This document shows, one piece after another, positions 4,382-20,211 of a stretch of DNA of 26,468 bases (its first letter is position 1; the number at the start of each line of letters is the position of its first letter). Source of the stretch: a virus; the IMG/VR virus record IMGVR_UViG_3300001097_000865, positions 1 through 26,468 of that record; one strand, given 5' to 3'. A model generated the notes under the pieces. That model saw only the letters and a program-made list of their open reading frames with translations. It ran no database searches and was not told where the DNA came from. Made by a program: the position numbers and the translations under genes.

Positions 4382-4579
4382 ATGGATATAACAAGTTTAG
4401 TTATAATTATTAGGTATGGGTGCAAGACAAATACAGTGACCTGTAATAATGACAATACCTGTTATTGTGATAAATACTGTGTTTACCGTGGTAATTGTCA
4501 AAGAGAGAGAGATTTAAGATTTAAGAATAAAGAAAAAATTGATAGGAGAAAATATGATGGGAGAATATATGATAAGTGA
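4382..4579 (+). CDS. Cysteine-rich miniprotein
   Basis: This encodes 65 residues. The middle third holds six cysteines (spacing roughly C-x6-C-x6-C-x-C-x3-C-x5-C, ending in CVYRGNC), followed by a strongly basic tail (RERDLRFKNKEKIDRRKYDGR). The Cys cluster suggests one zinc site or a disulfide knot, and the basic tail suggests nucleic-acid binding. The start ATG 4382 follows the previous stop by one base, and AGGAG lies 13 bases before it, a little far. The 3' end overlaps the methyltransferase start by 26 bases. No family is recognised; the overlap and weak spacing leave some doubt that it is translated well. Confidence 0.55.
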   Translation: MDITSLVIIIRYGCKTNTVTCNNDNTCYCDKYCVYRGNCQRERDLRFKNKEKIDRRKYDGRIYDK

Positions 4580-7600: not shown

Positions 7601-8131
7601 ATGGCTAGAAAAGCAACTTGTCCTCATTGCAATCAATTTATAGAAATTGACGATGGATTCAAGAAATTTCAAAATAGAAAATATCATTTAATTTGTTATA
7701 AATTAGCGATGGAAGAAATCTACGAAAATAATAAAAAAGACATAGACCCTAAACAAGAACTTTATGAGTACATATGTAAAGTATATGGTACACAAGAGGT
7801 TAGTCCGATGATTAATTCGCAGATAGAAAGATATATGACTGAGTATCCCACTTGGAAATATAGTGGTATATTGTACACAATAAGATATTTAACAGAGGTA
7901 GAAAAAACAGACATTAAAAACAATCCTAATATCAGAGGGGTTGGATTTTTACCTTATAAATATGACTTAGCGAAACAACATTTTTTAATAGTTAAGAGCG
8001 CTAATGACAATTTAAATGAACAATTGAAAAATAAAACTATTAAAGATTTTGTTATTGATAAGAAAATAAGACTTAAACCAATAAATTACGATAACAATGA
8101 CAAAGACATTATAAAAATCGAAGATTTGTAG
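7601..8131 (+). CDS. Zinc-ribbon protein in helicase-loader position
   Basis: This encodes 176 residues with an N-terminal metal-binding motif, C7-PH-C10 and H29-LI-C32, which looks like half of a LIM or treble-clef finger. The remainder is helical and charged, with PTWKYSGILYTIRYL and GVGFLPYKYDLAKQHF as the most conserved-looking parts. It lies immediately upstream of the DnaB-type helicase (10 bases), the position often held by a helicase loader or replisome organiser in phages of Bacillota. I do not recognise a loader family, so that role is inference from position. Start ATG 7601 is behind AAAGGAG and just after a terminator, so it begins a new unit or is reached by readthrough. Confidence 0.72.
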   Translation: MARKATCPHCNQFIEIDDGFKKFQNRKYHLICYKLAMEEIYENNKKDIDPKQELYEYICKVYGTQEVSPMINSQIERYMTEYPTWKYSGILYTIRYLTEVEKTDIKNNPNIRGVGFLPYKYDLAKQHFLIVKSANDNLNEQLKNKTIKDFVIDKKIRLKPINYDNNDKDIIKIEDL

Positions 8132-10835: not shown

Positions 10836-12623
10836 ATGAAATATAACGTCATTGGTAGTAACGATTACATATTCGATTTAAGAGCGAGTATATTTGAAAA
10901 CAGGGGTATAGACAGAAAGGACATAGAAAAATTTTTAAACCCAACTAGAATCGTTGAAAATAGCTACAAAAAATTAGATAATATTATCACAGCTGTTAAA
11001 GTATTGAAAAAACATTTAGAAAACAAAAGCAGAATACATATTATTGCAGATAGTGATTGTGATGGATATTGTTCTGGCAGTGCAATGTATTTAGCTTTGA
11101 AGGAAATATATCCGCTGTATAATTCACATTTAACTTGGAACATCCACGAAGAAAAAGCACACGGTATAGTCATAGAGGAGTTAGAAGAGTTTAAAAATTC
11201 GAAAGGCAAATATAACTTTGATTTATTAATCGTGCCTGATGCTGGAAGCAGTGATGTAAAAGAATGTAAAATACTTAAAGAATTAGGTATAGATGTTATC
11301 ATATTAGACCATCATGAATCCGATGTAGAGAATGATTATGCTATTGTAGTAAACCCTCAGTTATCCCCTAATTACCCTAATAAAGAGATTTGCGGAACAA
11401 CAGTGGTATATAAATTTCTTCAAGCTTTAGATAAGGAACTTAAATGCTCTGTGGCTAATAATTATATTGATTTGGTTGCGGTTGCCACAATTTCTGATAT
11501 GATGGACACAAGAGAGTTGGAGAATAGATATTATATTAATCAAGGGTTGAAAAAAATAAAAAATCCTTTTGTACAAGCACTTATTAAGAAACAATCTTTC
11601 TCTATGAAGCGTACCAATATTAAAGGTATTGGCTGGTATATAGCTCCACTTATAAACGCAGTAACCAGAGTTGGAACTGTCGCAGAGAGAAAAGATTTAT
11701 TCAGAGCTTTTACTGACACAGAGTTACAAATTATATATAAAAGAAGTAAAAATGCGGAAGAACAGTTAGTCTATTTATACGAAGATATGGCTAGACAATT
11801 AGTCAATATAAAATCTAGACAAGACAGATTAAGAGATAAAGTATCCCCTACACTATTACTATCTGCCAATGAAAACAATGTATTAAATATTATTAAAATG
11901 GATGATGATGTAAAATACAAACATATGAAAGGCGTACTAGCTATGAAAGTTGCTAGCAACATTAACAGACCTACTTTGTTGTTCGTAGAAAGAAAAGTAG
12001 AAGTAAACGGAGAAATTAAAACAATATTACAGGGCTCTGGTCGTAATTTAGATTATTACTTTATAGATAATTTAAGGGACGAATTAATAAGCAGTGGGTT
12101 GTTTATAAATGCGGCAGGTCACGGTAATGCTTTTGGATTTTCATTGTTATTAGAAAACAAGGATAAAGCCATTGAATTTTTTAATAAAAAATATGAAAAC
12201 CATGAAAATAGCGTGACAGTAGATTTTGAAATTAATAGTAGTAAATTACAAAAATCGTTAGTGAAAACATTTGACAATTTGAAAGATATATGGGGACAGT
12301 CATTTAAAGAGCCAAAAGTAATTATTAAAGATGTAGTAGTTAAAAACGCAGTAATCAATGAAAAAAAGAGTTTACTTTCTTTTGTCAATGAAGACACAGG
12401 TATAGAATATAAATTGTTTTTCCCTAATGAAAAAGTTATTTTAGACTTGACAAATGAAGAAAAAGATGTTACAATAGATGTAATAGGTGGTTTGGATATA
12501 AATGAGTGGAATGGAGACAAGACATACCAAGTGGTTATAGAAGATTATGAGATAACAGACTCTAGAAAAGTCAAAAAATTTAAAAATGGAAAAGGCAAAG
12601 GGAAAGATGATTTCTTCTTTTAA
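10836..12623 (+). CDS. recJ: RecJ-type single-strand DNA exonuclease (DHH/DHHA1)
   Basis: This encodes 595 residues with the full DHH set: motif I D72-S-D74-C-D76-G, motif II VPDAGSSD (Asp135), motif III D158-H159-H160, and motif IV ATISDMMD (Asp221). The DHHA1 domain has AAGHGNAFGF with His429. An OB-like C-terminal domain follows and the end is basic (KKFKNGKGKGKDD). RecJ degrades ssDNA 5' to 3' with Mn2+/Mg2+ and acts in recombination and repair. In a phage replisome it may resect ends for Sak4-mediated annealing or process lagging-strand ends. Start ATG 10836 lies 3 bases after the primase stop, with GAGGAAG inside the primase end. The gene closes with a hairpin. Confidence 0.92.
   Translation: MKYNVIGSNDYIFDLRASIFENRGIDRKDIEKFLNPTRIVENSYKKLDNIITAVKVLKKHLENKSRIHIIADSDCDGYCSGSAMYLALKEIYPLYNSHLTWNIHEEKAHGIVIEELEEFKNSKGKYNFDLLIVPDAGSSDVKECKILKELGIDVIILDHHESDVENDYAIVVNPQLSPNYPNKEICGTTVVYKFLQALDKELKCSVANNYIDLVAVATISDMMDTRELENRYYINQGLKKIKNPFVQALIKKQSFSMKRTNIKGIGWYIAPLINAVTRVGTVAERKDLFRAFTDTELQIIYKRSKNAEEQLVYLYEDMARQLVNIKSRQDRLRDKVSPTLLLSANENNVLNIIKMDDDVKYKHMKGVLAMKVASNINRPTLLFVERKVEVNGEIKTILQGSGRNLDYYFIDNLRDELISSGLFINAAGHGNAFGFSLLLENKDKAIEFFNKKYENHENSVTVDFEINSSKLQKSLVKTFDNLKDIWGQSFKEPKVIIKDVVVKNAVINEKKSLLSFVNEDTGIEYKLFFPNEKVILDLTNEEKDVTIDVIGGLDINEWNGDKTYQVVIEDYEITDSRKVKKFKNGKGKGKDDFFF
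12447..12475 (+). promoter_or_regulatory. Candidate internal promoter within recJ
   Basis: TTGACA (12447-12452), a 17-base spacer and TACAAT (12470-12475), with TG at 12467-12468, all inside recJ codons (LTNEEKDVTI). Boxes and spacing match the promoters at 5337 and 19154, including AAAT after the -35. It would read toward the polymerase gene but through the hairpin at 12630. It could also be chance from AT-rich codons. Confidence 0.45.
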
Positions 12624-12629
12624 ACCAAC

Positions 12630-12664
12630 ATTAGGTAGACAAGCTAGATATTTGTCTACCTAAT
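12630..12664 (+). terminator. Terminator-like hairpin after recJ
   Basis: ATTAGGTAGACAA (12630-12642) pairs perfectly over 13 bases with TTGTCTACCTAAT (12652-12664), with a 9-base loop. It begins 6 bases after the recJ stop. Only a short T-rich tail follows (TT, then AAAG), so termination may be partial and the hairpin could act as an attenuator or message-end protector. Confidence 0.72.
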
Positions 12665-12722: not shown

Positions 12723-12736
12723 GAAGGAAGTGAATT

Positions 12737-15700
12737 ATGGATTACGAAAGATGTGAGCTATGCGACAAATTAACAGGTGGTGCTGGGCGATTAGATGATT
12801 CAATTGTATGCAGTGAATGTAATAAGGTTATATGTGAAGATTGTGGTAAGAATATAATAAACAGCGAGGTTGTGTGTTTGGAATGCCTTGGTTTTAATCT
12901 GTCCGATGAAGAGTTTTCTGAGCTACACGGACATACAGAAATGTCAAACTTTAGACTTCTAGACTCTATAAACAAAGTTGAAGACTATGTTAACTATGCT
13001 TATAAAATGGGTTTAAATGCTGTAGCAATAACTGACCATGAAACTGTTTCAGCACACATAAAAGGTATAAAAGCGTATAAGGAAATAAAGAAGAATGATG
13101 CTGACACTAATTTTAAATTAATATTAGGAAACGAAATATATTTAGTTGATAAAATGAAAGAGCTTCCATCAGATAAAATAGATTATCATCACTTTTTATT
13201 ACTAGCAAGGAATAAAAAAGGGCATAAAGTAATAAGAGAATTGTCATCTAGAGCTTGGTCTAACTCTTATACAGATAGAGCAATGGAAAGAGTACCGACT
13301 TTAAAGAGTTGGGTAGAAGAAATGAAAGACGAAATAAAAGGGAACGTCTACGGGAGCACAGCGTGTCTAGGTTCTGAATTTTCTAAATTGGTTTTAGAGT
13401 ATTTAGACACAAATAGCTTAGGAGTCAAGCACGAAATAAACGATTTTATAAAATGGAATATAGATATATTCGGAGCTGATGGTTTCTTTATAGAATTGCA
13501 ATCAGCGACAACAGTAGAACAAATTGAATATAACAAGTTTGCGATAGTAATAGCCAAAGCATATTCTTTAAAATGGATAATAACCAATGATATACATTAC
13601 CTTAATAAAACTAAGAGAAAAGTGCATAGCAACTATTTAAAATCTAAACAAGAAGAAAGAGAAGTAGACTCTTTCTATAACAACACTTATTTTAAAAACA
13701 TAAAAGAAATGCAAGAACAAATGGATTATCTGTCAGATAAGGATTTTAAAGATGGTATTAATAACACTGTGTTCATTAGCAATAACATAGAGACCTATGA
13801 TTTGAATCACGAAGTTATAGTGCCAGAACTAACCTTGCCAGAATTTGAATTGGATAATATTTTTTCTTTATATTACGATAAGTATGAATATATTAATAAG
13901 TTTGCCAATAGTATGTTTAATCAAGATAAATACATGTTGTATTTGATTGAAAAAGGATTCAAGAGGTTTAACCAAAAATACAATGAAGAAAATTTAGCGA
14001 GAATAGATATAGAATTAAAACAATTATGGAATATTAGTATAAAACTAGGGCAACGATTATCAGCTTATTATAACCTCACAGAAAGATTAGTAGAAATAAT
14101 GTGGGATGATAATTTAGGAAATAGTCTTGTAGGAGTCGCTAGAGGTAGTGTTACAGGTTTTTATACTTGCTATCTAATGGAAATAATTCAAATAAATCCT
14201 ATCGAGTACGATTTACCTTATTGGAGACATATAAGCGAGAGTAGACCAGAGCTTCCCGACATTGACCTTGATTCACAATCAAGTAGAAGGGCTTTTATAT
14301 TCGATTCCATAAAACAAGAAATTGGGTATGAAAATGGTTTGAATATTATAACATTTACAACAGAAGCTACCAAATCAGCATTGTTAACAAGTTGTAGAGG
14401 ATTGGATATAGATATAGATTTAGCACAAGAAATGTCTGATTTAATTCCTTCTGAAAGAGGTTTCCTATGGTCTTTGAAAGATTGTATTTATGGCAACGAA
14501 GAGTTAGGTAGGAAGGTAGTTACACAACTGGTAAACGTGCTTAAAATCCATGAAAATCTAATAGAAACAGCCTTGGGGATAGAGGGGCTAATAAACGGAC
14601 GTTCTTCTCATGCAAGCGGTTTTTATATCTTTAAAAACGGTTTTATAGAACAGAATGCTTTAATGAAATCTCCTAAAGGTCAATTTATTACACAATTTAA
14701 TATGGAAGACTCGGATTATTTAGGTGGTCTTAAAGTAGACTGTCTTACAATTAAAGCTTTAGACAAACAAAGAAAAACTTTAGATTTACTAATGGCAGAT
14801 GGATTGATAAAATGGCAAGGTACTTTAAAAGCCACTTACGATGAATATTTATTGCCTAGTGTAATAAATTTGAATAATGTTGAAATGTGGGCAAATATAA
14901 ACAATGAAGTAATCACAGATTTATTCCAATTTGAAACAATGATGGGTTCTCAAACTATTAAATTGTTACAACCTAAGAATATAGAGGAAATGGCAATAGG
15001 GAATTCAGCTATGCGACTTCAAGCAGAAGATGGTGGCCAGTCTCCGTTGGAAATGTTCGCTATGAACAAAAATAATATTGATATTTGGTATAAAATGGCT
15101 AGAGAATATGGTCTCACAGAAGAAGAAATTAACATTTTAGAGAAGCACTTGGGAAAAAGATACATGTTAGCTATAGAACAAGAAGATATAATGGAACTTT
15201 CAATGGACGAAAAAATATCTGGGTTCGATTTAGTTAAAGCAAATAAGCTTAGAAAAGCAGTAGCTAAGAAGAAAAAAGATATATTATCACAAGTAAAAGA
15301 GATTTTTTATGAAGGAGGTTTAAAACTAAACACTAGAGAAAAATTTCTAGATTTTGTATGGGATAAAGCTATAATGTTACAAGCTGGGTACGGTTTTTCG
15401 AAAAATCACACTGTTCCTTATTCTATGATAGGTGTTCAAGAGGCTTGGTTAGCTACTAATTACAGTCCCATCTATTGGAATACTGCTTGCCTTACAATAA
15501 ATTCAGAGTCTAGTCAAGAAGAATTATTCGATGAAGATGATAAAAATACGAAAACTACACAATACGGTAAAATAGCTAAAGCTATAAGTCGTATGCAAAG
15601 CAGAGGTATAGCAGTAACTTTGCCTAATATAAATAAAGCGAATTTTGAATTTACTCCAGACAGTGAAAATAATAAAATTATATTTGGGCTTAAAGGTATA

Positions 15701-16837
15701 TCTCATGTTAATGACGATTTAGCTAACAACATAATTAAAAATAGACCTTTTAAGGATATAGTCGATTTTATAGATAAAGTAGAGCCTACTAAAATACAAA
15801 CAATATTTTTAACTAAGGGGGGAGCTTTCGACACTTTCCTAGAAGACGGAGCTAGAGAAGATTTAATGAAAGAAATACTAAAAATCTTTGCTGTAAAAGA
15901 AATTGGAGAAAATGTTAAAGAAAGCTTGACAATGAGTAACTTTAATGCTATAATAGAATTGGGCATTTTACCAGAAGATGAAAAAATATTTATAAGGCAT
16001 TGGAAATTTAAAAAATACGTATTGCAAAATTGCTTTAAATGTGGTAAAATAAGAAACAAATTATATTATAAAACAAACAATGCTTCTAAATTATTTTTTG
16101 AACAGTTCTATTGTCCTAATTTAGAAAAAGATTCGGATTATTGGTACGAAGAAGACGTGTTGCATTTCTATAAAAGCTCTTATGATAAGGTTTATCTAGA
16201 AATGGAAGATAAAATAAGAGAATTAATAAATACCGAAGATTTTATAAATACTTATAATCAGTCTTCAATTGATTCGTTAGCAAATGAAAGCTGGGATAAG
16301 TACTGCGATGGTACAATAAGCAAATGGGAAATGGACTCTATAAGTTATTATTACCACGAGCACGAATTAGCCAACATACAAAAATCAAGATACAACATAA
16401 GTGATTTTGCTTCGTTACCAGAAGAGCCTTTATATTCTATGGAATTGCATAAAAAAAGTGGCAGAGAATGGAAAAAATACGATTTAAGTAGAATAAGTGG
16501 TACTGTTCTAGATGTAAACAAATTAAAACATATTGTCTATATATTGACAACAGATGGTGTAGTTAATGTAAAATTCTATGGAGGTAGTTTCGTAAACTAT
16601 AATAAAACTTTATCACAAACGGTTTATGATGAATCTAAAAAGAAAAACGTTAAAAAAAGAGTAGAAGAATCTTGGTTCAAAAGGGGGAATAAAATAATGG
16701 TAGCTGGTTTTAGAAGTGGCGATTACTTCATTCCTAAAAAGTATTACAACTCTGTATTCAATCATACAGTAGCTAAAATAGAAGAAATAAACAATGATGG
16801 AAGTTTAGTTATAAATACAGAGAGAATTAAGATATAA
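12737..16837 (+). CDS. dnaE: DNA polymerase III alpha subunit, DnaE type, with extra N-terminal Cys module
   Basis: This encodes 1366 residues. Residues 1-52 form a module with four CxxC pairs (Cys 6/9, 25/28, 33/36, 47/50), not usual for DnaE. The PHP domain (about 60-290) keeps ligand-type residues His64, His66, Asp100, His101, Glu133, His151/152, Cys210, Asp285 and His287, so it may be an active proofreading nuclease. The family-C palm has GVARGSVTG and PDIDLD (507-512, catalytic Asp508 and Asp510), with Asp668 in LKVDCL as the likely third acidic residue. The tau/beta-binding region is followed by an OB-fold (about 1260-1366). There is no DnaQ-like insertion, which excludes PolC. It copies the phage genome; no clamp gene is seen here. 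Start ATG 12737 is behind AAGGAAG. Confidence 0.92.
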   Translation: MDYERCELCDKLTGGAGRLDDSIVCSECNKVICEDCGKNIINSEVVCLECLGFNLSDEEFSELHGHTEMSNFRLLDSINKVEDYVNYAYKMGLNAVAITDHETVSAHIKGIKAYKEIKKNDADTNFKLILGNEIYLVDKMKELPSDKIDYHHFLLLARNKKGHKVIRELSSRAWSNSYTDRAMERVPTLKSWVEEMKDEIKGNVYGSTACLGSEFSKLVLEYLDTNSLGVKHEINDFIKWNIDIFGADGFFIELQSATTVEQIEYNKFAIVIAKAYSLKWIITNDIHYLNKTKRKVHSNYLKSKQEEREVDSFYNNTYFKNIKEMQEQMDYLSDKDFKDGINNTVFISNNIETYDLNHEVIVPELTLPEFELDNIFSLYYDKYEYINKFANSMFNQDKYMLYLIEKGFKRFNQKYNEENLARIDIELKQLWNISIKLGQRLSAYYNLTERLVEIMWDDNLGNSLVGVARGSVTGFYTCYLMEIIQINPIEYDLPYWRHISESRPELPDIDLDSQSSRRAFIFDSIKQEIGYENGLNIITFTTEATKSALLTSCRGLDIDIDLAQEMSDLIPSERGFLWSLKDCIYGNEELGRKVVTQLVNVLKIHENLIETALGIEGLINGRSSHASGFYIFKNGFIEQNALMKSPKGQFITQFNMEDSDYLGGLKVDCLTIKALDKQRKTLDLLMADGLIKWQGTLKATYDEYLLPSVINLNNVEMWANINNEVITDLFQFETMMGSQTIKLLQPKNIEEMAIGNSAMRLQAEDGGQSPLEMFAMNKNNIDIWYKMAREYGLTEEEINILEKHLGKRYMLAIEQEDIMELSMDEKISGFDLVKANKLRKAVAKKKKDILSQVKEIFYEGGLKLNTREKFLDFVWDKAIMLQAGYGFSKNHTVPYSMIGVQEAWLATNYSPIYWNTACLTINSESSQEELFDEDDKNTKTTQYGKIAKAISRMQSRGIAVTLPNINKANFEFTPDSENNKIIFGLKGISHVNDDLANNIIKNRPFKDIVDFIDKVEPTKIQTIFLTKGGAFDTFLEDGAREDLMKEILKIFAVKEIGENVKESLTMSNFNAIIELGILPEDEKIFIRHWKFKKYVLQNCFKCGKIRNKLYYKTNNASKLFFEQFYCPNLEKDSDYWYEEDVLHFYKSSYDKVYLEMEDKIRELINTEDFINTYNQSSIDSLANESWDKYCDGTISKWEMDSISYYYHEHELANIQKSRYNISDFASLPEEPLYSMELHKKSGREWKKYDLSRISGTVLDVNKLKHIVYILTTDGVVNVKFYGGSFVNYNKTLSQTVYDESKKKNVKKRVEESWFKRGNKIMVAGFRSGDYFIPKKYYNSVFNHTVAKIEEINNDGSLVINTERIKI
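15926..15954 (+). promoter_or_regulatory. Consensus promoter inside the polymerase gene
   Basis: TTGACA (15926-15931), a 17-base spacer and TATAAT (15949-15954), with TG at 15946-15947, is a full consensus sigma-A promoter with extended -10. It lies in polymerase codons around residues 1064-1073. It would make a message for the polymerase C-terminus and the RecD2 gene. A functional role is inferred from sequence quality only. Confidence 0.55.
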
Positions 16838-20046: not shown

Positions 20047-20211
20047 ATGGAACAAGAAGATTATCTAAAAGCATATGGGATGTGTCCCATATGCTTAAGA
20101 GAATTAAAAACGAGAAAAATAACTGAGGAACATGATGATAATAGAAGTCACAACCAAGAAATTATAATACATTACTGTGAAATACACGGCGACATAACGG
20201 AAATTAATTAG
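20047..20211 (+). CDS. Small zinc-ribbon-like protein
   Basis: This encodes 54 residues from ATG 20047, with AAAAGGTG 6 bases upstream; its TAG stop (20209-20211) overlaps the AGGAGG of the next gene. It carries C-P-I-C near residue 13-16 and C-E-I-H in the last 12 residues (HYCEIHGD), so C-x2-C and C-x2-H could bind one zinc. The context between (LRELKTRKITEEHDDNRSHNQE) is highly charged. Ribosome binding site, tight spacing and conserved-looking metal ligands support a real gene. No family is recognised. A 12-base perfect inverted repeat lies within its first codons. Confidence 0.72.
   Translation: MEQEDYLKAYGMCPICLRELKTRKITEEHDDNRSHNQEIIIHYCEIHGDITEIN
20069..20096 (+). other. Perfect 12-base inverted repeat in the start of the zinc-ribbon gene
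   Basis: AAGCATATGGGA (20069-20080) pairs without mismatch with TCCCATATGCTT (20085-20096) around a 4-base loop TGTG. It begins 22 bases after the A of the start codon. As RNA it would form a stable stem in a ribosome's path; as DNA it could be an operator. No T-run follows, so it is not a terminator. Confidence 0.7.

Follow-up and report, generated by a model that had tools for sequence, protein, structure and literature searches.

Why does a phage DNA polymerase open with eight paired cysteines directly ahead of its PHP domain, and do those residues belong to the protein at all? The question arises from the IMG/VR virus record IMGVR_UViG_3300001097_000865, which we analysed as a single window of 26,468 bases. 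The features around the start of the polymerase gene are as follows.

10836..12623, + strand: RecJ-like exonuclease gene just upstream of dnaE, an arrangement matching yorK-yorL of SPbeta
12724..12734, + strand: ribosome-binding site AAGGAAGTGAA for ATG 12737 (pairing with the 16S 3' end, −10.6 kcal/mol)
12737..16837, + strand: DnaE-type C-family DNA polymerase of the SPbeta YorL / PHROG 405 type, 1366 aa
12737..12886, + strand: eight-cysteine module, four CxxC pairs, acidic (residues 1-50 of DnaE)
12887..12919, + strand: linker from the last CxxC to the PHP domain (residues 51-61)
12920..13504, + strand: PHP domain (residues 62-256; Pfam PF02811, E 5.5e-25)

The polymerase and its cysteine-rich N-terminus

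The polymerase has four Pfam domains, all over cut-off, in the order PF02811 (residues 62-256), PF07733 (402-670), PF17657 (697-863) and PF14579 (957-1035), corresponding to the PHP, DNA_pol3_alpha, finger and HhH series of DnaE. PHROG 405 matched residues 56-1347 (E 4.9e-229), and the top-listed named relative was YorL of SPbeta (NP_046685.1), a polymerase of the same type with 43% identity across residues 58-1366. Residues D508, D510 and D512, which we take to be the PDIDLD-type catalytic palm aspartates, were invariant in all ten aligned sequences, the window's included. Because none of the NCBIfam models for cellular DnaE reached its equivalog cut-off (the best, PRK05673, scored 373 bits against a required 1002), we regard the protein as a phage-type relative and not as a cellular DnaE equivalog.

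The neighbourhood also resembles that of SPbeta, where yorI (replicative helicase), yorJ and yorK (RecJ-like) lie upstream of yorL; the window has a helicase gene, a primase-like gene and the RecJ-like gene in the matching order, although yorJ itself is annotated as hypothetical. YorL, however, lacks a cysteine module and begins four residues ahead of the first histidine of its PHP domain. DnaE replicases of SPbeta-type phages seem to be little studied, judging by the few papers that we found.

All nine residues that we take to be the expected metal ligands of the PHP domain, with positions and roles as we assume them, are present (H64, H66, D76, H101, E133, H152, C210, D285 and H287), the last two falling outside the Pfam limit of the domain. 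Seven of these ligands did not vary in an alignment of 60 N-terminal regions, and D285 and H287 were replaced in a single row (locus L207). In a predicted model most residues of the PHP domain had pLDDT above 90, and the modelled PHP fold matched structures of DnaE (from E. coli, M. tuberculosis and others) and of Geobacillus PolC. An intact ligand set is not proof of activity, for which PolC is an example (PMC3666897). Some C-family polymerases with the complete set are exonuclease-active, and E. coli, with a degenerate site, relies on epsilon (PMC3919608).

The initial annotation placed four CxxC pairs within the first 50 residues and ahead of the PHP domain, and this was borne out. The cysteines are C6, C9, C25, C28, C33, C36, C47 and C50, spaced C-x2-C-x15-C-x2-C-x4-C-x2-C-x10-C-x2-C (inter-pair gaps of 15, 4 and 10), and codons 1-50 coincide with 12737-12886. 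A DNA pattern for this spacing had a single match in the window, at 12752-12886, and 100 shuffles gave none. Cysteine makes up 1.14% of the 7442 residues counted in the open reading frames of the window, which gives a binomial probability of about 1e-7 for eight or more in 50 residues. The other 1316 residues of DnaE carry ten. None of the 72 other open reading frames (of 73 with at least 50 aa) had more than one CxxC pair per 54 residues. Residues 1-54 are acidic, with 11 D/E, five K/R and no histidine.

Further cysteine motifs were observed in the window. The open reading frame at 4382-4579, which comes nearest to the module by plain cysteine number, has six cysteines in 50 residues and no CxxC. 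Near the C-terminal part of the polymerase lies NCFKCG...FYC (16031-16114), a CxxC plus one cysteine at residues 1099, 1102 and 1126, a motif that was absent from nine aligned relatives.

Start site and reading frame of the module

We compared four in-frame start codons for pairing with the 16S 3' end, using an anti-SD sequence that we assume to be correct. Pairing at ATG 12737 (−10.6 kcal/mol) was the strongest, followed by TTG 12878 (codon 48; −7.7), GTG 12872 (−5.9) and ATG 12941 (−3.2); for 150 random positions the median was −2.9 and the 5th percentile −7.4 kcal/mol. By codon-usage likelihood, frame 0 of the module ranked first among the six frames (0.074 bits/codon, with the runner-up at −0.318). 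This score lies slightly below the lowest 48-codon window in the rest of dnaE (0.086; mean 0.290) and rises to 0.262 bits/codon when the cysteine codons are left out. A promoter scan near the dnaE start returned one site where 2.0 were expected.

The initial annotation had recognized that a start at a later codon would remove the module, and the best candidate for such a start is TTG 12878, with the cysteine-rich stretch lying outside the protein. It is a minor rival on account of its Shine-Dalgarno pairing, which is fair and just past the 5th percentile of random positions, and of the 16-residue leader that it would leave, which is inside the range of 1-28 residues among 59 aligned relatives. 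The low codon score of the module with cysteine codons included also favours it. We nevertheless consider this start very unlikely, since the pairing at ATG 12737 is stronger, frame 0 outscores the other five and becomes dnaE-like once cysteine codons are removed, and the shuffles did not reproduce the eight-cysteine pattern. With a single frame of 1366 codons, the best ribosome-binding site at its first ATG and a coding-like frame, the proposed N-terminal fusion of the module to DnaE is supported, and we regard it as very probably genuine.

The gap that separates the recJ stop codon from dnaE contains a 14-pair hairpin (12630-12664) with no mismatches and one G-U pair, and the 121-nt stretch that contains it had a folding z-score of −2.95. 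A terminator scan reported none at this hairpin.

Distribution among relatives and other cysteine additions

Relatives were collected from four alignment-based scans of viral contigs (the best 80 each of 446, 502, 445 and at least 582 matches), a genome contig scan (20 loci) and three protein searches of annotated phages (the best 60 of 1322, 60 of 605 and 60 of 661 records). A set of 297 loci reduced to 174 distinct N-termini, the window's included; the HxH of the PHP domain was located in 167 of the 174, and a few loci were seemingly frameshifted or cut. The initial annotation had raised the possibility of the same fusion in other phage DnaE proteins, and here the outcome was negative: four CxxC pairs ahead of the PHP domain were found in none of the other 173 N-termini, which represent the best-listed relatives. 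We accordingly rejected a fusion conserved across phage DnaEs.

The alignment gave the same picture, with the module in none of the 59 relatives, which begin 1-28 residues upstream of the HxH (median 9). Ten named phage relatives start 4-14 residues ahead of it. In a scan of 398 Bacillota genomes, none of the 30 best loci, by frame length mostly cellular DnaE, had a CxxC upstream of the PHP domain, and among plasmids none of the best 30 of 97 records matched ahead of residue 54. The annotated-phage record with the smallest query start listed, H135, matched from residue 42, and Gut-P1 matched from residue 45. Both were rejected as carriers: the H135 sequence in the frame of the match start is unlike the module, and Gut-P1 is without it.

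The sole other copy found was IMG/VR 3300000405_000128 (locus L002), identical over 8869 of 8869 bases, and a scan with the 59-aa N-terminus recovered this contig alone. Its identity supports the assembly, if it derives from separate reads. Because it is identical in nucleotide sequence, it carries no evolutionary information on conservation of the cysteines.

A tblastn search with the module alone gave four matches among phages, none with an E value better than 7, and no plasmids. A DNA scan for the exact spacing returned, among the matches listed, 234 within the returned loci, 33 of them open frames; the 30 that we inspected were cysteine-rich, often repetitive and shared at most four non-cysteine identities with the module. 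When the 398 Bacillota genomes were searched, 18 had matches at E ≤ 0.05 (best 0.0019). Of eight loci inspected, five were zinc-finger-like proteins that we take to be of FmdE type, aligned to about residues 15-52 of the module, and the other three frames were short or hard to interpret; we treated these genome matches as generic zinc-finger resemblance. A fused neighbour gene was also rejected as the source, as the genes that precede dnaE in the 13 relatives inspected included some with CxxC and none that was module-like. Within the relatives examined, the module is a lineage-specific addition.

Two other groups of relatives carry different cysteine-rich elements at the same point.

L126 4426-4515, L430 and L431 3001-3090: six-cysteine leader ahead of the PHP domain, six cysteines per 27 residues
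L026, L103, L118-L121 and L152: single CxxC just upstream of the dnaE HxH

The DnaE proteins of L126 and L431 (IMG/VR 2708742532_000007 and 2799112248_000007) resemble that of the window in having a cysteine-rich leader but differ in cysteine number, spacing and tree position. Their common leader reads MCKTCELHK[G/R]DVWICTCEGECTCRIELHAH, with all six cysteines kept. L126/L430 and L431 are identical at 1257 of 1343 residues (94%), and their first 30 codons differ at four nucleotides, two of these being silent changes in cysteine codons. In the second group, which includes a Paenibacillus dendrobii record (L103), a lone conserved CxxC lies some nine residues upstream of the HxH. Pfam gave no match to either of the two leaders when they were tested. 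A quick tree of 66 rows, with SH-aLRT support only, implied at least three changes between states with and without cysteines and placed the window apart from both groups. These two groups belong to a set of 15 rows in which several forks are unresolved, so it is not firm that they arose independently of each other. The end branch of the window is long (0.88 changes per column) and therefore gives no date for the addition.

The cysteine motifs of these two groups, at the same PHP-proximal point as the module, hint at repeated additions. It is conceivable, as a speculation to which we attach little weight, that phage DnaEs of the YorL type repeatedly acquire cysteine-rich metal-binding elements at the PHP N-terminus, three kinds being seen here. 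Such elements might respond to zinc as docking sites or switches, governing a built-in PHP proofreader or linking it to a partner particular to the phage. The distribution also bears on the idea that the module is a young, near-neutral addition from a stray zinc-finger gene that still has no replication role. Its lack in the relatives examined fits that idea, and the nucleotide identity of the known copies offers no measure of selection; against this stand the four intact cysteine pairs and the comparable additions in the two other groups, and we consider it improbable.

In nine loci (L009, L102, L105 and L107-L112), dnaE matched in two or more pieces, with breaks mostly near residues 499-509, where the palm aspartates lie, or near 884-891. 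The pattern looks as though these sites were used by inteins, introns or endonuclease genes.

Possible fold and role of the module

Four CxxC pairs would most naturally be read as sites for two zinc ions. The eight candidate ligands come in pairs, the second and third pair being just four residues apart, and this spacing likens the module to double-zinc cross-brace fingers (FYVE, RING and B-box), which presumably share the pattern CxxC...CxxC-x4-CxxC...CxxC. FYVE/RabBD, RING and B-box matches were weak and below every cut-off, and the likeness to these proteins is one of spacing, the module being in a phage context. The Pfam values, all below cut-off, were E 0.015 for zf_RING-like (15.7 bits against a cut-off of 27, the best cross-brace score), 0.03 for Trim66 B-box, 0.031 for piccolo and 0.037 for B-box, followed by DUF7573 (0.068), Siva (0.1), DZR_2 (0.12) and DZR (0.52). 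A double zinc ribbon was not supported, as DZR and DZR_2 were both under their curated cut-offs. NCBIfam and PHROGs gave no matches to the module. Sequence matches in the PDB were likewise weak, to a C2H2 zinc-finger protein (E 0.031), rabphilin-3A (0.065) and synaptotagmin-like protein 4 (0.25); the best of these by E value and the weak genome matches, which look like another kind of zinc finger, do not point to a cross-brace. AlphaFold2, run without metals or alignment depth, gave three helices for the module alone at pLDDT 54, and residues 1-50 in the context of the PHP domain had pLDDT of about 48-57. This low pLDDT lends no structural support to the proposed fold.

Four CxxC pairs would also suffice for two iron-sulphur clusters in a redox sensor. 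The typical spacing of bacterial ferredoxins is CxxCxxCxxxCP, from which the module differs, and its weak matches are mostly to zinc fingers, so we regard iron-sulphur ligation as highly improbable.

Our preferred reading, which we hold with moderate confidence, is that the module is translated as part of a YorL-type phage DnaE and forms an accessory domain, specific to this lineage, on its N-terminus, probably a two-zinc finger, with a docking surface near the PHP domain. Its basis as observed here is the frame, the likely start, the cysteines, the absence from the relatives examined and the full expected set of PHP ligands. The eight cysteines would most likely hold two zinc ions, the fold would most likely be a small cross-brace or treble-clef finger, and the module may hold a phage replisome partner near the PHP side. 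A precedent for contact at this side is E. coli Pol III, in which the tail of the exonuclease (the proofreading subunit) wraps the PHP domain (PMC3642679).

The initial annotation had suggested DNA binding or protein contact, for instance with the primase or helicase. Protein contact is plausible, although the results point to neither primase nor helicase in particular, and we favour docking over a grip on DNA because of the acidic composition and the position directly ahead of the PHP domain. A DNA-binding zinc finger could grip the single-stranded template, the primer or the exiting duplex and so raise processivity; the protein is a DNA polymerase, and small Cys4 fingers are frequently nucleic-acid binders. 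The charge balance and lack of histidine in residues 1-54 would be unusual for a nucleic-acid binder, however, and make this role unlikely.

The position of the module would also suit a structural or metal-handling cap that stabilises the PHP N-terminus or aids metal loading. The module lies directly ahead of the first ligands, H64 and H66, nine of nine expected ligands are present, and two other groups have different cysteine-rich N-termini at this point. Yet 58 of the 59 aligned relatives (the exception being L207) keep all nine ligands and none of the 59 has the module, so a cap is not generally needed, and we find this role doubtful.

Extra domains N-terminal to the PHP domain have been described in other C-family polymerases: Bacteroidetes DnaE1 has an exonuclease joined to the PHP N-terminus, and PolC has OB and NTD regions ahead of it (PMC3919608). 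The DnaE of the window shares this arrangement, although those additions are exonuclease or OB/KH-like domains of cellular enzymes, whereas the window's is a cysteine module in a phage. The same source describes a Lar-like predicted zinc domain in the second DnaE1 of Desulfococcus oleovorans (PMC3919608). That accessory domain is comparable to the module in being a predicted zinc domain on a DnaE; as described there, however, it is rubredoxin-like and replaces the C-terminal domain, while the module is N-terminal.

If a private zinc-type domain does adjoin the PHP site, it would give a concrete handle on replisome attachment or regulation in such phages. Because the module is confined to a single lineage, it allows limited generalisation, unless the recurring cysteine additions at this point prove functional.

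Elsewhere in the window, two small cysteine-bearing open reading frames gave weak metal-finger matches below the Pfam cut-offs, a PHROG 4680 protein (7601-8131) to LIM and the frame at 20047-20211 to a zinc ribbon.
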